Source of the DNA: Candidatus Thioglobus sp.
GTDB lineage: Bacteria > Pseudomonadota > Gammaproteobacteria > PS1 > Pseudothioglobaceae
Direction: 5' to 3'
DNA: 19,368 nt
Assembly (NCBI GenBank): GCA_015163925.1
Contig: JAAOIF010000003.1
Span: 1-19,368, forward strand
The translations under genes were made by a program, and so were the position numbers. Under the pieces are notes generated by a model. The model was not told the DNA's origin. It was given only the letters and a program-made list of their open reading frames with translations, and did no database searches. Below, piece by piece: positions 4,801-18,553 of the stretch. Positions within the stretch are counted from its first letter, which is position 1. Every line of letters starts with the position of its first letter.

Positions 4801-6068
4801 GTGCGATAATCGGTATTTATTTTGATATAATCAAATGATAAATCGGTGGTCCAAACGCTTTCGCAAGTGGTATTTTTGCCGATTTTAATATCAATTAAAA
4901 TTTCACTTTTTGCCATTTCCTCAGCCCCCTGTTTTTCGGTGTAATTTTGGTTCAATTCGCCGTTTTTAATCAAGCAAACCGCGCCCAAATAAATATCTAC
5001 ATCTGCCACTTTTAAGTCCGAAATATTTGCCCGACCGACCGCTGCCAAAATCCGCCCCCAATTAGCATCAGCGGCAAAAATCGCAGTTTTCACCAAAGGC
5101 GAATGTGCCACAGTATAAGCCACTTCCAAGCAATCTGCACTGGATTTTCCCGCCACCCGAACCTCCACAAATTTAGTCGCCCCCTCGCCGTCTTTGATAA
5201 TTTGCTGCGCCAAAGACTTCGTAACTGCGTTCAAAGCTGATTGAAATTCATCCAAACAATCCGCCAGCCGAACCTCCAAAACCCCCGTAGCACTAAGCGT
5301 GCAAGCATCATTCGTGGAAGTATCGCCATCAACAGTAATGCGATTAAACGACTGATTTACCGCTATATTTAAGCAATTTTGCAGCTCAGATTTCTTCGCA
5401 GAAATATCAGTAAAAATGAAACTCAGCATCGTTGCCATATCCGGTCGAATCATTCCAGAACCCTTAGCAATCCCAGTGATACTAACGGTTTTGCCGTTAA
5501 TTTCAAATTGACTATTAGCAGTTTTTTGCTTCAAATCGGTGGTCAAAATCGCAGCCGCCACCTGCGGTAAATTATCAACTGAAATTCCAGCAGCTAATTG
5601 CTTAATATTATCCTCAAAACACGCCATCGGTAAGGGTTTGCCAATTACTCCGGTGGAAAACGGCAACACTTCAGACGGCTCAATTCCTAATTCATCAGCC
5701 ACCATTTTGCAAGTCTCAAAAGCATTTTCCAGCCCCACCGTGCCACTCGCCAAACCCGTGCCAGCGTTAGCATTGCCGGTATTTATCAGCAAAGCTCTGA
5801 TGTCATTTTGCAAGTGATTTTTTGCCACTAACACCGGTGCGGCGCAGAAAATATTCTGAGTAAAAACCGCCGCTGTGGTGGTATTTTCAGCCAATAAAAT
5901 TACTGATAAATCCAATTTTTTAGTATCATCAGGCTTTGAATTTGTATCTGAATTTATGCCCAAATCTATGCCTGAATTTTTGTCTAAATCTGTGCCTGAA
6001 TTTTGGGCGTTTTTAATCCCAGCATTCAACGCATTAGATTTAACACCTTTGATTTTTAATAAATTCAT
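4797..6068 (-). CDS. argJ: Bifunctional ornithine acetyltransferase / N-acetylglutamate synthase
   Basis: ArgJ transfers the acetyl group of N-acetylornithine to glutamate, closing the acetyl cycle of arginine synthesis; bifunctional forms also use acetyl-CoA. The precursor cleaves itself before a threonine, here T213 in RPDMATMLSF. Other family marks are VFTQNIFCAAPV (68-79), LLINTGNANAGTG, the oxyanion segment STGVIG (138-143), TTDLK, and TVDGDTSTNDACTL. Length is 423 against about 405 because residues 22-48, before the first conserved core strand, are a low-complexity Asn/Ser/Asp/Lys insert made of 8-residue repeats. The ATG overlaps the toxin stop by 4 bases and the TGA overlaps the purU start by 4 bases. 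I cannot tell from sequence whether it is mono- or bifunctional. Confidence 0.95.
   Translation of the reverse strand: MNLLKIKGVKSNALNAGIKNAQNSGTDLDKNSGIDLGINSDTNSKPDDTKKLDLSVILLAENTTTAAVFTQNIFCAAPVLVAKNHLQNDIRALLINTGNANAGTGLASGTVGLENAFETCKMVADELGIEPSEVLPFSTGVIGKPLPMACFEDNIKQLAAGISVDNLPQVAAAILTTDLKQKTANSQFEINGKTVSITGIAKGSGMIRPDMATMLSFIFTDISAKKSELQNCLNIAVNQSFNRITVDGDTSTNDACTLSATGVLEVRLADCLDEFQSALNAVTKSLAQQIIKDGEGATKFVEVRVAGKSSADCLEVAYTVAHSPLVKTAIFAADANWGRILAAVGRANISDLKVADVDIYLGAVCLIKNGELNQNYTEKQGAEEMAKSEILIDIKIGKNTTCESVWTTDLSFDYIKINTDYRT
5950..6009. repeat. 24-bp tandem repeat inside argJ
   Basis: Two and a half copies of a 24-base unit starting GAATTT at 5950, 5974 and 5998. Each unit is itself built from two similar 12-base halves (GAATTTATGCCC / AAATCTATGCCT). 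In the argJ frame the unit encodes 8 residues (NSGTDLDK, NSGIDLGI, then a degenerate NSDTNSKP). The length keeps the reading frame. Confidence 0.7.
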
Positions 6069-6394
6069 TGCCTTGAAAGTGTATCAAATAAAATATCTTT
6101 AAAATCCCGACTGCTATCAATAATCAATAAAATTATCACTTGATTGGCGGATTTAATTTGGTAAATAATTTTCCAACGCTGGTGCATTACAAATTTGTAA
6201 TCCGACTGATTAAATGATTTTAATTCGTCAATATTGCGTCCGCGTTCAGGCATCAAACACAATTCGTTAGCCGCTTGCTCTATGTTTGTTAAAATTTTAT
6301 CAGCAATACTAACGCTGTCAGCAACAGCAATATAGAGAATTATTTCTTTTAAACTTGTTTTTGCCGTGTCAGACCATTTGATTTTATGTGTCAT
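6065..6394 (-). CDS. RelE/ParE-family toxin
   Basis: A 109-residue protein with the compact RelE/ParE fold pattern: IKWSDTAKTSLKEIILYIA (first strand and helix), a second helix ADKILTNIEQAANELCLMPERGRN, then the strands YKFVMHQRWKIIYQI and VIILLIIDSSRDF. The PERGR turn and the R-x-IYxI strand are typical. RelE types cut mRNA on the ribosome and ParE types poison gyrase; the sequence does not settle which. The antitoxin gene upstream overlaps it by four bases (ATGA), as expected for a pair, and its own stop overlaps the argJ start by four bases. Confidence 0.85.
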   Translation of the reverse strand: MTHKIKWSDTAKTSLKEIILYIAVADSVSIADKILTNIEQAANELCLMPERGRNIDELKSFNQSDYKFVMHQRWKIIYQIKSANQVIILLIIDSSRDFKDILFDTLSRQ

Positions 6395-6669
6395 TTAAGT
6401 AAATCTAACTTTTGTCTGATTTCTTCAAAAACTTCCTCTTGCGGCGTCCAATTGCCTTTTTCAACCTGTGCTTCGCTGATTGTAATCAGCTTGGATAAAG
6501 CCGCCATTTCTTGCACATCGTCATAACTTTTAATGTCTTGCACCACGGCTTTGGCTTCGCCGTTTTGAGTAATAATCATCGGCCGTTTGTTTTCAGTAAT
6601 GGTTTTGATGACTTTTGCAGCGTTGTTTTTCAGGTAGCTGATGGGTTTGATGTCTTCACTGAGTCGCAT
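6391..6669 (-). CDS. Phd/YefM-family antitoxin
   Basis: A 92-residue protein starting MRLSEDIKPISYLKNNAAKV, then ENKRPMIITQNGEAKAVVQDI, which is the N-terminal DNA-binding and dimerisation fold of Phd/YefM antitoxins. The acidic C-terminal tail (from about residue 70) would wrap the toxin. I chose the ATG at 6669 because GGAG sits 6 bases upstream; a longer TTG start at 6681 would place that ribosome site inside the gene. It is the first gene of a four-gene chain (antitoxin, toxin, argJ, purU) joined by ATGA overlaps. A TATAAT box lies upstream. The complex with its toxin probably represses this promoter, as in other type II systems. Confidence 0.85.
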   Translation of the reverse strand: MRLSEDIKPISYLKNNAAKVIKTITENKRPMIITQNGEAKAVVQDIKSYDDVQEMAALSKLITISEAQVEKGNWTPQEEVFEEIRQKLDLLK

Positions 6670-6692
6670 AATTTTCTCCAAAAAAAGATGAG

Positions 6693-8154: not shown

Positions 8155-8901
8155 ATGACTTTTTCTCATACTGAATTTTTATTGCTTGGGCTGATTTTTG
8201 TGTGGACTGGTTTTGTGCGCACGGGGCTTGGATTTGGCGGGGCGGCGTTGGGGTTGCCGTTGTTGTTGCTGCTGGGCGGCTCGCCGGTGTATTGGTTACC
8301 GCTGATTGGCATTCATCTTTTGTTTTTTGCCTCGCTGACTTTGAAAAAATCGCTCAAAAAAGTGGATTGGAATTACCTGAAAAAGTCGCTGGCGTGGATT
8401 ATTTTGCCGGCTTTGGCTGGGGTTTTTGGCTTGATTTCTCTGCCGGATAAATTGGTGATTATTTTTGTATATTTGATTACTATTTTTTATGGATTTATTT
8501 GGAGTTTGGGCATCAAAATTGCCTCGCACAGGGCTTGGATTGATAAAATTTTATTGCTGCTCGGAGGCTATGTGGCGGGCATTTCGCTGACCGGAGCGCC
8601 GCTGATTGTGGCAGTTTTTATGCGTCATATTACTAAGGAAAAATTGCGCAATACTTTGTTCGTTTTGTGGTTTATTTTGGTGAGTTTGAAGATGGCAACT
8701 TTTGTGGCATTTGAGGTTTTTATTGATTGGAAATTGTCCCTGAGCCTGCTTCCGGTGGCGGCGATTGGGCATATTATCGGACTAAAATTGCACCAGAAAA
8801 TTATCCAAAATGATGCTTTATTTAAGCGCATGACAATTTCCACATTAATAGTATCCAAAAACGCCTCAAACATCGTAAAAGATTCGCGTTTGTATTCCTG
8901 A
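8155..8901 (+). CDS. TauE/SafE-family permease, 3'-truncated
   Basis: A polytopic membrane protein of the TauE/SafE family, which includes exporters of sulfite, sulfoacetate and related anions. Family marks are the N-terminal FVRTGLGFGGAALGLPLLLL (residues 21-40), with its GFGG motif, and the internal pseudo-repeat GYVAGISLTGAPLIVAVFM. Five or six hydrophobic spans can be seen. The native sequence runs to about residue 226 (LFKRM); after that the frame reads the antisense of a secA fragment, giving STLIVSKNASNIVKDSRLYS. Only the last short helix is likely lost, since relatives are about 245-250 residues long. There is no Shine-Dalgarno before 8155, but a TGA at 8140 in frame excludes a much longer form. 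The substrate cannot be told from sequence. Confidence 0.8.
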   Translation: MTFSHTEFLLLGLIFVWTGFVRTGLGFGGAALGLPLLLLLGGSPVYWLPLIGIHLLFFASLTLKKSLKKVDWNYLKKSLAWIILPALAGVFGLISLPDKLVIIFVYLITIFYGFIWSLGIKIASHRAWIDKILLLLGGYVAGISLTGAPLIVAVFMRHITKEKLRNTLFVLWFILVSLKMATFVAFEVFIDWKLSLSLLPVAAIGHIIGLKLHQKIIQNDALFKRMTISTLIVSKNASNIVKDSRLYS

Positions 8902-9494
8902 GCCGGATTTTTCTGCGCATAGCCCCTGAGATTCACGCTTTGGCGCAAATAATCCATCGCCGCCAGATGCTCTTTCCAGTAATGGTCCAAAGTTTGCAGC
9001 ATCACCGCTTTTTCAAAAGCCCGCATTTGCTCAGAGCCGACAAGATTTTCCTTATCAGCGCAAATTTGGCTCAAATTTTGAATGATTTTTGCCTCTAATT
9101 CGTCAATATTAATTTTCTCATCAAGCCACTTTTGCAGCTCAAAATCCGCCGCATAATCGGATTTCAAGGCATTTTGCAAGCCCTCCACATTCCATTCCTC
9201 TTCGGCAGTTTCAGTGGAAATATAGTCTGCAAGCAGCGCCGTTACAACACTTTTGCGAATGCTAATAAATCTGTCCTGCACATCATCCACGCTCATCAGC
9301 TCATCACGCAGCTGATACACAACCTTGCGCTGGTCGTTAGCAACATTATCGTATTCTAATAGGTTTTTGCGGGCATCATAATTCATTCCCTCAACCTTTT
9401 TTTGCGCATTTTCAATCGCCCGATTAACCATTTTATGCTCAATCGCCTCGCCGTGTTCCATGCCCAGCCGTTGCATCATTGCTGAGTAACCCAA
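8625..9494 (-). pseudogene. secA: SecA ATPase, internal fragment
   Basis: The native part spans about 9486 to 8817 and matches roughly residues 600-830 of the 900-residue preprotein translocase motor: SAMMQRLGMEHGEAIEH, KNLLEYDNVANDQRKVVY, MLQTLDHYWKEHLAAMDY, then LRGYAQKNPAQEYKRESF. This covers the end of the second nucleotide-binding domain and the helical scaffold and wing. The DEAD motor domain, the protein cross-linking domain and the C-terminal zinc-binding tail are missing, so it cannot be a working SecA. The codons before SAMM (TTG GGT TAC) belong to the fibre gene, and those after about LNK (8817) are antisense to the TauE gene. SecA is normally essential, so a complete copy should exist elsewhere in the genome if this is not an assembly error. 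Confidence 0.85.
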
Positions 9495-12400
9495 GCACTG
9501 ACATACAAAAAGCCGCTAATATAGCCAGTATTACTGCCAACAAAGGCTCAATTGCCATTGATACCGTGCAAGGCAATTTATACATTAAAAGAACCGATGG
9601 AGTGGCTAGTGAAGATATTCCGGGCTGGTTTGTCATTCCGAATGCCTCTGGTGTATTTTTACAAGGCGGCAATATATTTGGCGATACCGCCAGATTAGGA
9701 AGTAACAATGCGCAGAGTTTAGAATTGGAAACCAATAACACCGTAGCCCTGACTTTAGACACCAGCCAAAATGCCAGTTTTGTTGGCAATATCACTCTAA
9801 ATAATAAAAATATCAGCGGCGTGAATGAGCTAAAAATCAACACTCTCAAGCCGCAAACTGACACTTTGGATTTTGTCCTAAATCCCAACCAAACCGATGC
9901 TTTGCGGATTACTGACGGCACTACCGAGTTTTTAAATTTCAACACTGAGGGCGGAACTATCACCGTTGGAGCAGCCTTAGAACTCGGCACTAACGAAATC
10001 AGCGGCTCAAATTTTGCCATCAGCGGCGGCACTATTGACAATGTGGTAATTGATAATGTAACCTCATTAAATGTCGGCGATTTGCAACTCATCAGCAATT
10101 CCATCACCTCCACTCACGCAGACGGAATCAGCTTCGGCGATGAAAACCTTACCACCAGCGGCAATTTAACGGTCGGAGGCTTAAATGTCAGCGGCAGCAA
10201 TATAGACAATTTAGGCGATTTATCACTCAGCAGCCTCAGCCCAGTTTCCACCGGAACAATCGCCATCAACCTCAACAACACCCAAGCAAAAGCCCTTGTT
10301 ATCAAGCAAGGCGATAAGGAATATTTGACTTTTGACACTTCCACCGGAGCAGAAAAAATCACAGTCGGGCAAAATTTAGTTTTAGGCGACAAAAACATCA
10401 GCGGCTCGGATTTCACCATAACCGGCGGCACAATTAATAATACTATTATCGGCGCTACATCACCAGCCGCCGCCAAATTCACCTCTTTAGGATTTGATAC
10501 TTTAACCGCCCCAGCCGACCTCGGTAGCCAAACTCTCACCCATGTAAATATTGATTCCGGCACTATTGACGGCGTAACCATCGGCTCTGACACTGCATTA
10601 ATAAGCCTAAAAGTCGGAATGTTTTCCATCAGCGGCAACTCAATCAATGTAAGCGGCGATACGATTGATTTCGGCGACAATCATTTGCAAACCTCCGGCA
10701 CTTTGACAGTCAGAACGCTTGACATAAGCAAAACCTCAATTGCGAGTATTGGTTCAATCGCGCTAAATAGCTTGTCTGCCCACGGCGACACTATTGATAT
10801 TAACCTGAAAAACAACCAAGCCGAAGCCTTGAAAATTACTCAAGGCACAGATACTTTCCTAACTTTTGATACTGAGAATGAGAAAATAATTTTAGGGCAA
10901 ACGCTCAATTTTAACAATAAAACACTTGAAAATATTGCCCTGACATCAGGCACTATAAATGGCGTTTCAATCGGCACCGGTACTGCAACTGGTTCTGCTA
11001 CCACCGCCAGATTCACCGATTTAGCCTTTACTACTTTAACCGCACCAGCCGACCTTAGCAACCATGCCTTAAACAATGTAAATATTGATTCCGGCACACT
11101 TGACAATGTTTATATCACTGCCAACAGCCTAACAATCGGCAGTATTTCCATTAACGATAATCAAATCACCTCCGGCCACGCAGACGGAATTAGTTTTGCT
11201 GATGAAAACTTAACCACCAGCGGCGCCATCACCTCCGGCAGCCTCTCAGCCCCTACTATCAGCGGAGTTGATGAAATCACTTTAGATAATATTTTCGCAA
11301 ATTCCAGCGGCTCAATCGCCATCGGAGTTGACGGAAATGCTATAAATCTCGCCGCTGATGCCTTAAAAATTGAGGGCGGAAATGTTACAACCAAAGCAAA
11401 TTTAACAGTCGGCGGCACTTTCAACGCCGGCACAGTTACCATCACCGGCGGCAACATTGACGGCGTAGCAATCGGCGCTGATGTGGCAGCCAGCAGCCTA
11501 AAAGTCGGAATGTTTTCCATCGGCGGCAACTCCATAATTTCCTCCAACGGCACAATTGATTTCGGCGCTGCAACCCTTACCACAACTGGCAATTTAGTGG
11601 TCGGCGGGCAGGATTTCAACAATGAAAATGTGGCAAATATTAACAACATTTCCCTGAATCAAATTTTAGCCCGAACCTCCGGCAATATCAGCATCGGTGC
11701 TGCTGGAAATACTATAAATCTCGCCACCGATGCCTTGCAAATCGCCGCTGATAAAAATATCACTTTGAGTAATAATTTGACGGTAAATGCCGGAAATCTC
11801 AACGCCAACGCAGTCGCCATCACCGGCGGCGACATTTCCAATGTTGCTATCACTGCCACAACTCTGACGGTTGATGATATTACCATTGATAACGGCAATC
11901 AAATCACCTCCAGCCACGCCAACGGCATTAGTTTTGACGATGAAGCCCTAACCACTACCGGCTTAATCACCGCCGGCAGTCTCACAGTTCCAACAATTAC
12001 TGGCGGCAGCATTAGCCTCAGCAGTATCAGTGCCAATAGCGGTTCAATCGCCATCGGTATTGCTAACGACAGCATAAATATCGCCGGAACAGCCCTCACA
12101 GTCAACAGCGGCAATGTTTCCACAGCAAGGGATTTAACAGTTACTGGCACTTTCAACGCCGGCACCGTTGATATAAACGGCGGCAACATTGACGGCGTAG
12201 CAATCGGCGCTGATGTGGCAGCCACCAGCCTAAAAGTCGGAATGTTTTCCATCGGCGGCAACTCCATAATTTCCAGCACTAATGTGATAGATTTCGGCGG
12301 CGCAACCCTTACCACAACTGGAAATTTAGTGGTCGGCGGGCAGGATTTCAACAGTGAAAATGTGACTGGAATCAACGACATTTCCCTGAATCAAATTTTA

Positions 12401-14017
12401 GCCCGAACCGGCAATATCAGCATCGGCGCTGCCGGAAATACTATAAATCTCGCCACCGATGCCTTGCAAATCGCCGCTGATAAAAATATCACTTTGAGTA
12501 ATAATTTGACGGTAAATGCCGGCACTCTGACCGCCAACGCAGTCGCCATCACCGGCGGCGCAATTTCCGGCGTAACCGTTGCCGCCACAACTCTGACAGT
12601 TGATAACATTACCATTGACGGCAACACCATCACTTCATCCACCGGCGGAATTAGTTTTGCTGATGAAAACCTAACCACCAGCGGCGCCATCAACGCCAAC
12701 AGCCTCACAGCCCCTACTATCAGCGGAGTTGATGAAATCACTTTAGATAATATTTTAGCCAAAACTGACAACTCAATCGCCATCGGAGTTGACGGAAACG
12801 CCATAAATCTCGCCGCCGATGCCTTAAAAATTGAGGGCGGAAATGTTACAACCAAAGCAAATTTGACGGTCGGCGGAACTTTCAACGCCGGCACAGTTAC
12901 CATTACCGGCGGCACGATTGACAATGTGGAAATAAATGCCACCAGACTTGCCGTTGATAATATCCTAATTGACGGAAATTCCATCACCGCTGTGAGCGGC
13001 GGAAATATTGATTTCGGCGCTGCAACCCTTACCACAACTGGCTCAATCAGCGCTAACGGCTTTGATGCAAATGAGCAAAATATTAGCAATGTCGGCGAAA
13101 TTTCGCTGGATTCCATCGCCGCCGACCAAAATATTGCCATAAATGCCATCGGAGAAGTCAATATTCAGTCCGGCAAATTGGTCATAAATGCCACGAATGT
13201 GACGGTAAATAACACTTTGGACATCAATACTACCGAGCTGACTAAAATCACTTTCGGCGGCTCTCCGACTGGCGTAATTGCCATAAATAACGACAATCAA
13301 TATGCGCTGATGAACGCATCAGACCGGCGTGTGAAGCAAAATATCCAAAATACTCGGCATAATGCCAGCAATATTCTGAATGCTTTTCGGGTCGTGGATT
13401 TCCGCTACATCGCCCATCCGACCAGCAATCTCATCACCGGATTTATCGCTCAAGAGGCGCGTGAGATTTATCCGGCGATGGTCAGCGAGCTGAAAAAAGA
13501 CTTACTCGGCATCAGCAGCAGCACTCTAATTCCGATTTTGGTGAAAGGTTTTCAAGAGCAGCAAACCGATATAAACAGCCTCACAGCGGCGATTGAGGTA
13601 AATCAAAATGATATAAATCTAAATAAAAATCTGAAAATTAATAACAAAATTTTGGCTGATGAGCAGAATAATTTATACGCAAATAGCCTCAAACTTGAAA
13701 GTAATATTGAGCTGGAAAATGATGAATTTAGCATCAAGCGTTCTGACACAATGAGTGATTTAATGAGCCTGAGTGCTGATAAAATAAGCAATGTAGATGT
13801 TGAGGGGTATTTGTCGGTGAAGGATGTTTATCTGGCGGATGGCAAGCGCTGGGCGAGTAATACCTCACAATTTAATGTGTTTGTAACCGAGCCGAATGTT
13901 AGCGATTGCATATTTGCCGAGCATGCTGGCAGTATTGGAATTTTGGCAAATACCGAGAAACTCTATATTTGTAGCGGCGTGAAGGGCTGGCAAATATTGG
14001 AAATGAAGGATATTTAA
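9479..14017 (+). CDS. Giant repetitive fibre protein with C-terminal S74 self-cleaving chaperone, 5'-truncated
   Basis: A very long protein (1512 codons from a TTG that is itself in the junction). Residues 50-1260 are a beta-rich repeat shaft of Asn/Ser/Thr/Gly/Ile-rich strands, with recurring blocks such as SLKVGMFSIGGNSIISS, ISFADENLTTSG and GTFNAGTVTITGG. Residues 1281-1375 are a peptidase S74 intramolecular chaperone: SDRRVKQNIQ with the catalytic dyad S1281 and K1286, GFIAQEAREIYPAMVSE, and TLIPILVKGFQEQQ. In phage fibres this domain drives trimerisation and then cuts itself off. A predicted coiled coil (1376-1440) and a small domain with a cysteine pair (C1477, C1498) follow. There is no phage gene nearby. 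The frame is followed after one base by a membrane protein and then a secretin gene, suggesting a secreted surface fibre. The true N-terminus, and any export signal, is lost at the secA junction near 9486. Confidence 0.8.
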   Translation: MLSNPSTDIQKAANIASITANKGSIAIDTVQGNLYIKRTDGVASEDIPGWFVIPNASGVFLQGGNIFGDTARLGSNNAQSLELETNNTVALTLDTSQNASFVGNITLNNKNISGVNELKINTLKPQTDTLDFVLNPNQTDALRITDGTTEFLNFNTEGGTITVGAALELGTNEISGSNFAISGGTIDNVVIDNVTSLNVGDLQLISNSITSTHADGISFGDENLTTSGNLTVGGLNVSGSNIDNLGDLSLSSLSPVSTGTIAINLNNTQAKALVIKQGDKEYLTFDTSTGAEKITVGQNLVLGDKNISGSDFTITGGTINNTIIGATSPAAAKFTSLGFDTLTAPADLGSQTLTHVNIDSGTIDGVTIGSDTALISLKVGMFSISGNSINVSGDTIDFGDNHLQTSGTLTVRTLDISKTSIASIGSIALNSLSAHGDTIDINLKNNQAEALKITQGTDTFLTFDTENEKIILGQTLNFNNKTLENIALTSGTINGVSIGTGTATGSATTARFTDLAFTTLTAPADLSNHALNNVNIDSGTLDNVYITANSLTIGSISINDNQITSGHADGISFADENLTTSGAITSGSLSAPTISGVDEITLDNIFANSSGSIAIGVDGNAINLAADALKIEGGNVTTKANLTVGGTFNAGTVTITGGNIDGVAIGADVAASSLKVGMFSIGGNSIISSNGTIDFGAATLTTTGNLVVGGQDFNNENVANINNISLNQILARTSGNISIGAAGNTINLATDALQIAADKNITLSNNLTVNAGNLNANAVAITGGDISNVAITATTLTVDDITIDNGNQITSSHANGISFDDEALTTTGLITAGSLTVPTITGGSISLSSISANSGSIAIGIANDSINIAGTALTVNSGNVSTARDLTVTGTFNAGTVDINGGNIDGVAIGADVAATSLKVGMFSIGGNSIISSTNVIDFGGATLTTTGNLVVGGQDFNSENVTGINDISLNQILARTGNISIGAAGNTINLATDALQIAADKNITLSNNLTVNAGTLTANAVAITGGAISGVTVAATTLTVDNITIDGNTITSSTGGISFADENLTTSGAINANSLTAPTISGVDEITLDNILAKTDNSIAIGVDGNAINLAADALKIEGGNVTTKANLTVGGTFNAGTVTITGGTIDNVEINATRLAVDNILIDGNSITAVSGGNIDFGAATLTTTGSISANGFDANEQNISNVGEISLDSIAADQNIAINAIGEVNIQSGKLVINATNVTVNNTLDINTTELTKITFGGSPTGVIAINNDNQYALMNASDRRVKQNIQNTRHNASNILNAFRVVDFRYIAHPTSNLITGFIAQEAREIYPAMVSELKKDLLGISSSTLIPILVKGFQEQQTDINSLTAAIEVNQNDINLNKNLKINNKILADEQNNLYANSLKLESNIELENDEFSIKRSDTMSDLMSLSADKISNVDVEGYLSVKDVYLADGKRWASNTSQFNVFVTEPNVSDCIFAEHAGSIGILANTEKLYICSGVKGWQILEMKDI
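11261..12912 (+). repeat. About 730-bp in-frame repeats of the fibre shaft
   Basis: The block beginning GGCGGCAACATTGACGGCG occurs at 11447 and again at 12179 (offset 732) and stays nearly identical for over 100 bases. The block TCCCTGAATCAAATTTTAG at 11651 and 12383 has the same offset. A third pair, AGCGGAGTTGATGAAATCAC at 11261 and 12722, is two periods apart (1461). All offsets except one 3-base deletion keep the frame (about 244 residues per unit). More diverged units extend the pattern back to about 10030. Confidence 0.8.
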
Positions 14018-14018
14018 G

Positions 14019-14828
14019 ATGAATTTAGTCGTTAAAATTATTATTGTTGGAGTTGTGGTTTTTGGATTTTTGCTGAATTTTATTTGGCAAAAAACCGATG
14101 CGGTAATTATTGATAATCAATATCATTTTAGCAATGAAGATATTGATAAACTTTTTGATGTAGAAGTGCAACTCGGCGAAATTATTGGCACTTCTGTGGT
14201 GCAAAAAAAGGCTGATGTTTTGTATAATTTGGTGATTAGTTCATTGCAAAAATCAATCCTAAATAAACATAATATTGAGCTTGAAAAAGCAAATGCTACT
14301 GAATTTGTGGAAAAAAATCAGCAAAATTTTAAAGGCTTTTATAAGAAATTTAAAGAGCAGATGGGAGTTGATGACTATTATCAATTACTGATTGAGCCGG
14401 TGGCAATTAATGGTAAATTTTTAAGTTTTTATAATGCCGTTGAGCCAGCAAAACAAAGGGCTAACGCGGCATTGGCGCTGGCTCAAAAAGATGGCTTGGA
14501 GGCTGCGGCAAAACAGCTTAATAAGGAAATTAAAGAGGTTAATATTAATGAAAATAACAGCGCTTTGAAGGCTGAATTTTTGCAATTTAAGACTAAAGAT
14601 TTATTAAGCGTTATTTACCCTAAACCAGTAAAAATAGGCGATAATATTGCTGTTTTGGATTTGGATTTTAAGGAAGATACGATTTCTGCTAAGGCATTGG
14701 TTTTTAAAATAATTCCTTATCAGAATTTTTTGGTTCAGTTGTCAAAGAAAATTAGTATACAATTTCCATTTTTTTCACGCTACAATTTAGCAGATATTCA
14801 TAATAAAAAAGGAAGCATATTAAAATGA
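14019..14828 (+). CDS. Single-span membrane protein, possibly SurA-like periplasmic chaperone
   Basis: A 269-residue protein I cannot name with certainty. Residues 3-21 are a hydrophobic anchor ([18 protein letters not shown]) with a short cytoplasmic N-terminus; the rest would be periplasmic. Next comes [18 protein letters not shown] and a helical segment ([20 protein letters not shown]) that resembles the N-terminal domain of SurA-type and anchored parvulin-like chaperones. No parvulin isomerase domain can be recognised after it. Charged alpha-helical sequence continues to the C-terminus. It begins one base after the fibre stop and its TGA overlaps the secretin ATG by four bases, so all three should be made together. 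A role in guiding the fibre through the periplasm or seating the secretin fits this place but is inferred. Confidence 0.6.
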
Positions 14829-16081
14829 AAGAATTAAAATTAAAAGTTATTGTCGTAAGTGCCTTGAGTATGGCTTTTTTGAGTGGCTGTGTTAGTTATT
14901 CGTCTGAGCAAATTAAGGCCCATCGGGACAAAGTGGATCGGTTGAGCAAAGTGTATGAAAATGCCCCGAGCGTCAAGCGAAAGCCGATTGTTGAGCATGA
15001 GGTTGAATTGTTTAATAGAAAAGTAAGTTTGACTCTATTTAATCAGCCTTTAGTCTCGGTTTTGCCGACTTTGGTTGGCGAGGTAAATTACTCAAAAGGC
15101 ATTAATACTAATGATTTAGTGTCTTTGGAGGTTGAAAATTTACCGGTCAGCAAGGCTTTGCATAGAATCCTCAAACCGATTGGATTATCCTATATTCGCA
15201 CCACCGGCGGCATTCTCGTCATCAAGCAAAAACGCATTACTTTTAGAGCATTCAGTCAGCCGTTAGATATTGTTTTAAACTCTATGCTCGGGGATATTTC
15301 TTATATTGTAAAAGACGGCGCTGAGAAGAGTTTGCAAAAATTAGTAAGTGTTGAATTTGAGGATTTGCCGATTGAATTAGCGTTAGATAGATTGCTGGCA
15401 CAGCTGAATATTAGCTGGAAAAAACAGGCAAAAGACTATGTTATTTTCCGCGATAAGGAACAATTATTTACCGTTAATTTTCCATTGATTGAGCAATCTT
15501 TTGATGTTAATTCATCCAGAGAATCGGTTGATGTGAATAAGAAAAATGAGAAAAACAAAGATGGCGCAATTTCTTTTTCATCCAGCAAAGCTACTTCAAG
15601 TGCGAAAACTGACAGTTTGGCAAATTTAACCAAAACCATTGAGCAATTTTTGACCGATAGCGGCAAGGTTATTATTCATAAAGAATTGGGTATGATATGG
15701 GTTCAGGACCGAGCTAATGTGGTTGATAGGGTTGGTGATTTTCTGGCCAGTGTGAATAAATCTCTGTCTACAAATGTCTCAATTAACGGCGTGATTACTG
15801 AGGTTGATTTGAACGAGGGCGATAAATTTGGGATTGATTGGGCTGTGGCAGCTGGCGATTTGGTTCGTGCTGGGGCGGCAATCGCCTCTACCGGCTCGGT
15901 GCTTGGCGGCACTAATGGTTCTAATTTTACTATTCAATTTGAAAACGGCAACGGCGCAAATGTTACTCGGTCTTACATCAATGCTTTAAAGCAATTTGGC
16001 GATGTGAGAGTGATATCTCGCCCCTCCATTCGGGTGGCTAATAACGCCATCGGCTCGCTGATTGTTGGGCGAAATATCTCG
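14825..16081 (+). CDS. Lipoprotein secretin (type IV pilus / type II-like), 3'-truncated
   Basis: About 419 native residues. Residues 1-22 are a lipoprotein signal with lipobox LSGC, so C22 would be acylated. Two STN-type domains follow (about 64-133, [20 protein letters not shown]; and 139-214, [20 protein letters not shown]), then a Ser/Lys-rich linker (235-265), an N3-like domain ([20 protein letters not shown]), and the first part of the secretin barrel ([32 protein letters not shown]). Secretins form the outer-membrane channel of type II secretion and type IV pili; a lipidated form with STN domains suggests a PilN/MshL-like pilus secretin. The frame breaks off after [10 protein letters not shown] and continues without a stop into the hppA leader and hppA. 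About half of the barrel is missing. It overlaps the preceding gene by ATGA. Confidence 0.8.
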
Positions 16082-16099
16082 AAAACCAAGGAGAAAAAA

Positions 16100-18085
16100 A
16101 TGATACTTCAATTTGCCATATTAGCGTCAATTATTGCTGTTTTATACGGCTTATTCACCATCAGCTGGATCAACAAACAGCCGGCAGGAAACGAGAAAAT
16201 GCAAGAAATTTCAGCCGCCATCGCCCAAGGTGCAAGCGCATATTTGAACCGGCAATACAGCACAATTGCCATAGTTGGCGCGGTTTTGCTGCTGCTGATT
16301 ACTTACTTTTTAGGCGTTGCAGTCGGGCTGGGATTTTTGCTTGGCGCAATCCTCTCGGGCGCTACCGGCTATATCGGTATGAATGTCTCGGTCAAATCTA
16401 ATTGCCGCACTGCACAGGCGGCGGCGGACGGTATGAATGCTGCATTTCAAGTGGCTTTCAAAGGCGGGGCAGTTACCGGAATGTTAGTGGTGGGCTTGGC
16501 ATTGCTTGGCGTTTCGGGCTATTATTACGGAATGTTGGCTTTTGGAGTGGCACAAGCCGATGCCCTGCACGCACTGATAGGACTGGCTTTCGGCGGCTCG
16601 CTGATTTCTATTTTTGCACGCTTGGGCGGCGGAATTTTCACTAAAGGGGCTGATGTCGGCGCTGATATTGTCGGCAAAGTTGAGGCTGGAATCCCCGAGG
16701 ACGACCCCAGAAATCCGGCTGTAATTGCTGATAATGTTGGCGATAATGTTGGCGATTGTGCTGGAATGGCAGCGGATTTGTTTGAAACTTATGCGGTCAC
16801 AATCATTGCTACAATGCTACTTGCCGGAGTTTTGAACTTGGGCGAAAATGCGATTTTATATCCATTAGCACTCGGCGCGGCTTCAATTATTGCCTCAATT
16901 ATTGGTACATTTTTTGTCAAAATCTCAGCAAACGGTTCAATTATGGGCGCTCTGTATAAGGGTTTAATCGCATCTGGCGGCTTGGCGGCGATTGCATTTT
17001 ATTTCATCAGCAAGGAAATGGGAATGGATTTGGCGCTATTTTACGCCTCACTCATCGGCTTGGTTTTGACGGCGGCAATGGTAATTATTACCGAATATTA
17101 CACCTCCACCGAGTATCAGCCGGTGCAACACATCGCCAAAGCCTCAAAAACCGGAGACGGCACAAATGTAATCGCCGGATTAGGTTTGAGTATGAAATCA
17201 ACCGCCTTGCCGGTATTGGCAGTTTGCCTCAGCATCTGGGCAGCGCACGCGCTCGGCGGCTTATACGGAATCGCCATTGCAGCCACGGCGATGCTATCAA
17301 TGACCGGTATGATTGTCGCCTTAGATGCGTATGGACCGATTACCGATAACGCCGGCGGCATCGCTGAAATGGCTGAATTGCCAGCAGAAATTCGCAATAT
17401 TACCGACCCATTAGACGCAGTCGGCAATACCACAAAAGCAGTTACAAAAGGCTATGCCATCGGCTCTGCGGGCTTGGCGGCGTTAGTATTATTTGCTGAT
17501 TTCACTCACTCCCTCGGCGGCAGCGCAGAAGTATTTTTTGACCTCTCAGACCACCGAGTAATTATCGGCTTGTTTTTAGGCGGACTGGTGCCTTACCTTT
17601 TTGGGGCAATGGCAATGGAGGCAGTCGGTCGGGCAGCCGGTGGTATCGTTGAAGAAGTGCGCCGGCAGTTTCGGGAAATGCCCGGAATTATGGATTACAG
17701 CCAAAAACCTGATTATTCCAAAGCGGTGGATATGCTGACAAAATCCGCCATTCGGGAGATGATATTACCATCGATTTTGCCAATTTTATTTCCGCTGGCA
17801 GTCGGCTTATTATTAGGCAAAGAGGCACTCGGCGGCTTGCTAATCGGCTCAATTACCACCGGAATTTTCGTGGCAATCTCAATGACTACCGGCGGCGGCG
17901 CTTGGGATAATGCCAAAAAATATATTGAAGATGGCAACTGCGGCGGCAAAGGCTCAGACGCTCACAAGGCAGCAGTAACGGGCGATACAGTCGGCGACCC
18001 ATATAAAGATACTGCCGGTCCGGCAATCAATCCACTTATTAAAATCATTAATATTGTGGCAATTATGATTATTCCTTTGCTGTAA
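16100..18085 (+). CDS. hppA: Membrane-bound proton-pumping pyrophosphatase, K+-independent type
   Basis: A 661-residue integral membrane enzyme with about 16 hydrophobic spans, complete for the bacterial family. It couples pyrophosphate hydrolysis to ion export. The motifs [11 protein letters not shown] (D185 onward), [19 protein letters not shown] (D211 onward) and [19 protein letters not shown] make up the pyrophosphate-magnesium site. In [10 protein letters not shown] the lysine K446 with T449 is the signature of the K+-independent, proton-pumping subfamily; K+-dependent enzymes carry alanine at the lysine position. I start it at 16100, where AAGGAG (16088-16093) lies six bases before the ATG. 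The frame is open upstream into the secretin, so an automatic caller would report a false 1086-residue fusion. In autotrophs this enzyme salvages pyrophosphate energy. A hairpin terminator follows. Confidence 0.95.
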
Positions 18086-18154: not shown

Positions 18155-18553
18155 TTAGTTCTTCCAAATGTCCAACTCGCCGGTTAGCTCGTCAATAGAA
18201 AGATAACCGTCTCTATTTTTGTCCATTTTGTGCATTTTGCCATGCAAAACTTTGGGCAATTCCTTAGAAGAAAGCTTTCCATCTTTGTTAAAGTCAAACA
18301 TCGCCATCCAATGGTTATAATTTTCCTGATGCTCTAACTCTTGCTTAGAAATGAAATGGTCGCCATCTTTGTCCATGCTAACCACTTTAATCATAGCTTC
18401 AATGACTTCCGTCATAGAAATTTTGCCATCACTATTAGCATCAAAAATAGAAAATACATCTGATTCGCCGCCAATGCTATCGTTAAAACCAGCATTCACG
18501 CCCATAGTAGCTGTGGAAATTAATGCTACTGCAAATAATTTTTTTAAACTCAT
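18155..18553 (-). CDS. Secreted EF-hand calcium-binding protein
   Basis: A 132-residue protein with a signal peptide (MSLKKLFAVALISTATMGVNA, cleavage about residue 21). Four 12-residue EF-hand loops follow: D38-E49 (DANSDGKISMTE), D61-E72 (DKDGDHFISKQE, with His where Gly is usual at position 6), D87-E98 (DFNKDGKLSSKE) and D111-E122 (DKNRDGYLSIDE). All keep Asp at position 1 and Glu at position 12, so each should bind calcium. They are spaced as two pairs, as in calmodulin-like folds. Periplasmic EF-hand proteins of this size are common in gammaproteobacteria and their function is mostly unknown. AAGGAG at 18560-18565 precedes the ATG, and a TATAAT box lies further upstream. It appears to be transcribed alone. 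Confidence 0.9.
   Translation of the reverse strand: MSLKKLFAVALISTATMGVNAGFNDSIGGESDVFSIFDANSDGKISMTEVIEAMIKVVSMDKDGDHFISKQELEHQENYNHWMAMFDFNKDGKLSSKELPKVLHGKMHKMDKNRDGYLSIDELTGELDIWKN

Follow-up and report, generated by a model that had tools for sequence, protein, structure and literature searches.

The window analysed here is a 19,368-nt stretch of DNA from a Candidatus Thioglobus sp., which forms contig C164 of the assembly G000 (1.17 Mb, 230 contigs, 86% complete). It carries three consecutive open reading frames (ORFs) on the plus strand, encoding a giant fibre with a Peptidase_S74 domain (9479-14017), a middle protein presumed to be the chaperone of the fibre (14019-14828), and a putative secretin (from 14825). 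The first two ORFs are separated by a 1-nt gap and the last two overlap at an ATGA, just as the original prediction had it. The cassette is conserved in related genomes, and this suggests a dedicated export of phage-tail-like adhesive fibres. The features of the locus are the following.

9485-14017, plus strand: C-terminal part, about 1510 amino acids (aa), of a fibre that we call fibre B, with a repeat-rich shaft, an S74 domain and a tail; the listed ORF begins at 9479.
13319-13483, plus strand: Peptidase_S74 domain with the motif SDRRVK; presumed cleavage before Ser1281 of the ORF.
13667-14014, plus strand: C-terminal tail past the S74 domain, with two invariant cysteines; kept in genomes G069 and G027.
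14019-14828, plus strand: membrane-anchored SurA/PpiD/PrsA-like protein of 269 aa with a hydrophobic N-terminus; presumed fibre chaperone.
14825-16085 (end approximate), plus strand: MshL/PilN-like secretin, N-terminal part of about 420 aa only, with a lipobox-like start and two STN domains.
9484/9485: assembly join between secA and the fibre gene; the SecA_SW match (minus strand) stops here, and 9485-9558 is identical to contig C37 of the same assembly.
16085-16100 (position approximate): assembly join between the secretin and an H+-pyrophosphatase; in the fused ORF, the match to the H_PPase model begins at the first model position.

The presence of an S74 domain in the giant fibre, as claimed earlier, was confirmed with Pfam, which placed it at residues 1281-1335 with 43.4 bits against a cut-off of 22. 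The Ser-x4-Lys motif reads SDRRVK at residue 1281 of the window fibre and SDRRTK in the fibre of G069, and in a further fibre from G027 (fibre Y, S74 score of 25.0 bits against the cut-off of 22) the pattern SLGALK was recognised by eye. S74 domains nucleate a trimer and then cut themselves off, and the domain in the window fibre is predicted to trimerise and self-cleave in this manner. A protein search with the S74 end returned, among the best 7992 candidates scored, the window's own protein and two general S74 proteins. The secretin was expected to be a lipoprotein with two STN domains; its start indeed resembles a lipoprotein signal (by eye) and both STN stretches were found with Pfam, but the ORF is cut at about 16085, ahead of the pore domain, and runs on into the H+-pyrophosphatase.

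The window contig is evidently chimeric, with several assembly joins. The fibre ORF lies at 9479-14017 as predicted, but it is cut at 9484/9485 and its upstream part is secA. This join is directly proven, because C37 shares 74 identical nucleotides with the window (9485-9558) and extends the fibre frame upstream. The remaining joins we infer from the truncation of the genes at these places: besides the one behind the secretin, a RuBisCO large subunit is broken at about residue 316 (window position about 2023), and TauE meets the SecA end near 8816-8854 (limits of the matches).

The linkage of the three genes is conserved beyond chance, since the order fibre tail, middle gene, secretin is kept in all three loci holding the middle gene (the window, G069 and G027). 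The fibre thus adjoins the secretin in both relatives, which bears out the linkage originally read from the window alone. G027 (MEX2-MAG4, JAHRAO010000045.1) belongs to a family other than that of the window, and its middle gene and 605-aa secretin are open. The 99 codons 5' of its middle gene, up to the contig edge, correspond to the fibre tail, with 38% identity over 89 aa and an alignment score of 167, compared to a maximum of 49 in 1000 shuffles. G069 is from the window's family and consists of one contig (1.54 Mb, 99% complete). Here the locus is eroded: the order is still that of the fibre (with its S74 domain), the middle gene (as a remnant) and the secretin, but the secretin is broken up into several reading frames containing stops. 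Gene junctions that are open in the window and in G027 are eroded in G069. In two families, the genes stay coupled, by overlap or by a spacing of 1-6 nt. In G069 the locus (C1:1493500-1504200) is decaying while its neighbours (grpE-, nadK- and accB/C-like genes) look open.

Relatives of the middle protein are rare: eight, including the window's own, were found with the single sequence and nine with a profile among 5.8 billion proteins. Counted by genome, the gene was matched in 3 of 83 members of the order (the window, G069 and the rejected G015), in 2 of 369 in the class sample (the window and G027) and in 1 of 398 in the phylum sample (the window); these samples overlap. Plasmids gave no match to the middle protein. 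The G015 match of the profile (E of 2.5e-5, residues 3-68 only) was dismissed as a chance transmembrane match, because tblastn with the window protein found nothing there at E <= 0.01 and prepilin-like genes lie at this place. S74 domains occur in two of the 83 genomes of the order, both with the locus. The tail profile detected two of the 369 genomes in the class sample, with three places in G000 (those on C37 and C88 overlap and belong to one fibre) and two in G027. The N-terminal part of the G069 fibre, used as a single-sequence query, matched G000 (C39) but not G027, and therefore the N-terminal regions of the fibres must differ considerably.

The N-terminus missing from the window was found on C37 (L069, 3300 bp). 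The minus strand of this contig carries, in this order, the tail of a different fibre (fibre A) and, after a short spacer, a ZorA-like gene, a ZorB-like gene and the start of fibre B. Fibre B is represented by its initial 585 codons, of which the last belong to the ragged contig end; with the N-terminal 557 aa from C37, its length comes to about 2067 aa in total. Contig C39 encodes a protein with two transmembrane segments arranged as in Wzz (although a Wzz match was lacking at E <= 1), and then another fibre start. C39 was considered as the source of the N-terminus of the window fibre and rejected: it is 80% identical over 304 nt of a homologous stretch, against 100% over 74 nt for C37. Its fibre start is taken as that of the upstream fibre A, which can provisionally be assembled from C39, C88 and C37. 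The presumed link C39-C88-C37 crosses shaft repeats; C88 and C37 overlap by 124 nt at 100% identity. On C88 (L070), the S74 end of fibre A is followed by sequence reading like ribosomal protein S1, a presumed chimera. This S74 end is 90.7% identical in DNA to that of fibre B (window 13449-13825) over 377 nt. On contig C8 of G027 there is a second tail (X), which agrees exactly with the tail on C12 over the 125 nt closest to the contig edge, and also the second fibre, Y, which may start at a GTG that overlaps the stop codon of X (the start codon is uncertain). Fibre genes thus occur in tandem in both G000 and G027. Since they share near-identical S74 or tail DNA, gene conversion is hinted at, and the contig breaks are explained.

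Whether the fibre N-terminus carries a prepilin leader or a Sec signal had been posed as a check, and C37 answered it with a Sec signal followed by a pilin-like domain. The four fibre starts read (those of A and B in G000, of Y in G027 and of the G069 fibre) display by eye a short hydrophobic stretch with an Ala-x-Ala-like site, and none of the four a prepilin leader. The domain after the signal peptide consists of a helix, a WPT-like turn, and GGYLP and PWG-like motifs. A stand-alone 191-aa homologue of this domain is encoded within the G027 locus (L004 13919-14494, plus strand). With a profile of five sequences that included this ORF, GspG of E. coli K-12 ranked first of 1806 (6 real proteins and 1800 shuffles) with 12.2 bits, while the best shuffle reached 4.7. 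A profile of the four fibre domains alone was run on 809 segments, each reaching from stop to stop and 80 aa or longer, from the loci. Excluded from this set were 30 loci with own or duplicate copies, though some duplicates were left, and 19 of its segments were counted as pilin-class by a leader motif or by PilV annotation. After the G069 training row, the 191-aa ORF of G027 came first (E=8.3e-11), followed by a GspG-like protein of G001 (0.003), K-12 GspG (0.09) and two PilV (0.14 and 0.27), with the first non-pilin at 0.71. The first four matches from outside the locus were all pilin-class. In a control with shuffled columns, at least two pilin-class segments entered the top five for 1 of 100 profiles (three were observed), and pilin scores went no higher than 8.0 bits, against the observed 13.6. 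These results suggest that the N-terminal domain of the fibre is pilin-like. A PDB sequence search with the domain of fibre A gave no match at E <= 10.

Such a domain invites the interpretation that we are dealing with a type IVb pilus, in which the fibre is a PilV-like tip adhesin and the major pilin, ATPase and platform are encoded elsewhere or missing from the assemblies. This was one of the two proposals in the original prediction. It would account for the likeness of the domain to GspG and PilV, for the layout of pilin domain, shaft and tip as in the PilV of the Hydrogenophaga locus, and for a secretin nearest to MshL/PilN. It is weakened because the fibre, though PilV-like in layout, has a Sec signal and no prepilin leader in the four starts inspected. 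The stretches of the loci that were read showed no prepilin with a leader, no PilB/PilT and no platform gene, and the same applies to GspE/F/L/M. The type II secretion system (T2SS) ATPase model T2SSE had no match on C12 of G027 or near the G069 locus (C1:1.49-1.51 Mb); the only T2SSE ATPase of G027 above the cut-off lies on C43, in a GspC-D-E cluster. G027 and G000 each hold a T2SSE ATPase that is or resembles GspE. The fibre tail (YLSVKDVYLADGKRWAS) resembled part of a Hydrogenophaga plasmid PilV and was tried as a PilV tip module. It was rejected, with hmmsearch scores in both directions no better than those of shuffles and an hhalign probability of 0.1%. We consider a pilus-tip function unlikely.

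The middle protein was predicted to be SurA-like, and this is borne out by its predicted fold but not by Pfam, which gave no match at 0.001 and no relevant one at 1. In the structural model (pLDDT 85), compared with known structures, the SurA/PpiD/PrsA core fold fills rows 1-18 of VIA-align. No parvulin (peptidyl-prolyl isomerase) domain was detected by sequence, and a PDB sequence search had no match at E <= 10. From fold and gene position, we infer that the middle protein acts as the chaperone of the fibre.

By model scores, the secretin is closest to the type IVb models, MshL and PilN. In G027 it is followed on its 3' side by genes for proteins of 139, 176, 209 and 202 aa and for an FGE-fold protein, and the 35-kb stretch of G069 holds counterparts of these five in the same order (E of 3e-5, 5e-5, 4e-11, 4e-9 and 2e-20). 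The gene for this FGE/SUMF1-fold protein closes the locus on its 3' side, at L004 13093-14013 in G027 and at C1:1493545-1494021 in G069. The 209-aa protein has NCBIfam GspC/PilP matches at E of 0.02-0.09; the 202-aa protein was also tried as GspC/PilP-like and discarded, since shuffles ranked at the top. This conserved run of genes, together with the stand-alone 191-aa pilin-like ORF within the G027 locus, is what one would expect if the operon were shared while the secretin exported another cargo, such as a pseudopilus or the stand-alone pilin-like protein, and the fibre reached the surface otherwise. The mosaic adhesive trimer (MAT) fibres of Bdellovibrio may be cited in favour, being surface-located, while the word "secretin" is absent from the main text that describes them (PMC10769870). 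The fibre and its presumed chaperone, however, directly adjoin the secretin in two families, with the close spacing kept, and we judge a separate cargo to be rather improbable.

A short ZorA/ZorB-like pair lies between the two fibre genes of G000 (C37, 1755-2991, minus strand), a putative proton-channel motor that stands apart from any Zorya defence context. The ZorB-like gene (122 aa) overlaps the ZorA-like gene (290 aa) and leads through an ATGA overlap into fibre B. C37 belongs to a chimera-prone assembly, and yet it should be genuine across the pair, because start and stop codons overlap there. The PADLOC models ZorA and ZorB matched at 2.5e-34 and 1.9e-9, respectively, while NCBIfam ZorB1 reached only 0.05. 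The best PDB match of the ZorA-like protein was a MotA/TolQ/ExbB-domain protein (1.1e-7); the ZorB-like protein had no PDB match. The two are short compared to the Zorya models, most matches of which have 383-729 and 232-293 positions, and beside them on C37 there are fibre genes on both sides and no ZorC, ZorD or ZorE. We regard the pair as a putative power source or motor for fibre export. It might also be imagined that it moves secretin-anchored fibres in a proton-driven machine for surface motility or pulling, given its coupling to fibre B and given that GldK was among the NCBIfam matches, below cut-off, of the FGE-fold protein found at the locus end in G027 and G069. A GldK match is, however, expected for many FGE-fold proteins, the motor was found in one locus only, and no other gliding gene was recognised; such a machine seems very unlikely.

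Elsewhere in the window, two small overlapping ORFs on the minus strand (6065-6681) resemble by eye a ParE-type toxin and a Phd/YefM-type antitoxin, and at 18155-18553, also on the minus strand, there is a gene for a small protein that has EF-hand calcium-binding motifs and probably a signal peptide.

The explanation that we favour, to which we would give about an even chance of being right, is that the locus encodes a dedicated system for making, exporting and anchoring giant trimeric S74 adhesins, built from parts resembling those of type IVb pili and the T2SS. The chain would enter the periplasm via Sec, as the signal peptides indicate, and the membrane-anchored SurA-like protein would hold it unfolded. 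The S74 domain would then nucleate the trimer and cleave itself off together with the tail. The fibre would exit via the adjacent MshL/PilN-like secretin, and its pilin-like N-terminal domain could serve as a docking or retention base in the envelope. Instead of having its own PilB-type ATPase, the system might be powered by the coupled proton channel of ZorAB type or by the T2SS motor of the cell. A set of adhesins would result from the tandem fibre genes, whose S74 ends are nearly identical. For Bdellovibrio Bd3182, the tip of the S74 fibre is described as 40 Å across (PMC10769870). Given the lumen width of secretins, an open one could therefore let a folded trimer through. The earlier proposal of a bacterial surface fibre leaving through its own channel is thereby upheld as to the conserved cassette of fibre, chaperone and secretin, while the exit through the secretin stays conjectural. 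One may further speculate, more tentatively, that this is a distinct secretin-based export system, neither a type IV pilus nor a T2SS, with the pilin-like domain placed on the cargo, a SurA-like feeder, an S74 autochaperone, a short ZorAB-type proton channel instead of a hexameric ATPase to power passage or anchoring, and a private MshL-like secretin.

Several results weigh against the proposal of a dedicated fibre exporter. The secretin scores stay below the cut-offs, both for the window fragment (85.5 bits for PilN and 77.8 for MshL) and for the full-length 605-aa protein of G027 (best models MshL, 186.1 against 250.2, and PilN, 137.8 against 287.65). For the 209-aa protein the likeness to PilP is weak, the Hydrogenophaga PilP ranking second of 1806 with one shuffle higher. 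A profile of fibres B and Y alone performs less well (best pilins at 0.14 and 0.40, non-pilins from 0.55); Pfam T2SSG has no match in the fibres and hits the 191-aa ORF below the cut-off (15.7 against 21 bits). Structure prediction of the fibre N-terminal domain failed (pLDDT 44), and plain Foldseek with the model of the middle protein had no match at E <= 0.001. The ZorA-like protein matches NCBIfam NF033914 with E=1.3e-34 and 119.5 bits, below the cut-off of 190; Pfam has no MotA/ExbB match in the pair (best Cytochrom_C_asm at 3e-4, below cut-off), and the pair is absent from the locus stretches of G069 and G027. Finally, the tail fibre family phrog_1980 matches the fibre at 2.5e-9, so the S74 part may have descended from phages. 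S74 domains are common to phages and bacteria. A total of 105 phage records match the S74 part, all with less than 60% identity and less than 80% of the query covered, and this likeness to phage tail fibres could be taken for the trace of a prophage or an extracellular contractile injection system. Viral contigs, though, held no confirmed relative of the middle protein or the fibre tail, and Sec signals and a secretin are present. In agreement with what was originally noted for the window, no phage structural gene was seen in the stretches read of G027, G069 (about 26 kb of ORFs), C37 and C39. A remnant of this kind is extremely improbable.

The proposed exporter shares parts with several known systems. 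It resembles the R64-type type IVb pilus, with its PilV tip adhesin and PilN secretin, in that the secretin is related and a long repetitive shaft comes after the pilin-like domain; unlike that pilus, it has no prepilin leader and, in the stretches read, no pilus ATPase, platform or major pilin, and the S74 chaperone and the SurA-like protein are added. Type II secretion (GspC/D/E/G) is likewise secretin-based and has a GspG-like domain, whereas here the secretin is the locus's own and of another family, and the GspG-like domain sits in the cargo. With SurA, PpiD and PrsA the middle protein shares the predicted core fold, and with PpiD in particular an N-terminal membrane anchor, but it has no detectable parvulin domain or sequence similarity and was found here only in the cassette. 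The ZorAB-like pair is related by sequence to the membrane channel parts of Zorya, but comprises 290 and 122 aa only and stands beside fibre genes, without ZorC/ZorD on C37. Searches of the open-licence PMC literature found no paper joining S74 with a secretin, none joining an endosialidase chaperone with type IV pili, and none joining SUP05 with type IV pili and a secretin. If the proposal is true, parts of pilus machines have been reused to carry phage-tail-like adhesins. How large bacterial S74-type adhesive fibres cross the outer membrane and stay there is the question that the cassette addresses; since it links such fibres with a chaperone and a secretin, and in one genome also with a proton motor, the export route becomes testable. 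The closest known biology is that of the MAT fibres of Bdellovibrio bacteriovorus. As far as their description goes, they have in common with the fibres studied here a signal peptide, a long beta-rich trimeric shaft, a C-terminal S74 domain with Ser-Lys, and several copies per genome (PMC10769870). According to the same source, members of the MAT superfamily have in common a beta-rich N-terminal domain, about 130 aa long and placed behind the signal peptide, and the surface element bound by this domain awaits identification (PMC10769870). In our case the N-terminal domain is pilin-like and a conserved tail follows the S74 domain, and a secretin, a SurA-like chaperone and, in one instance, a motor are encoded beside the fibre.

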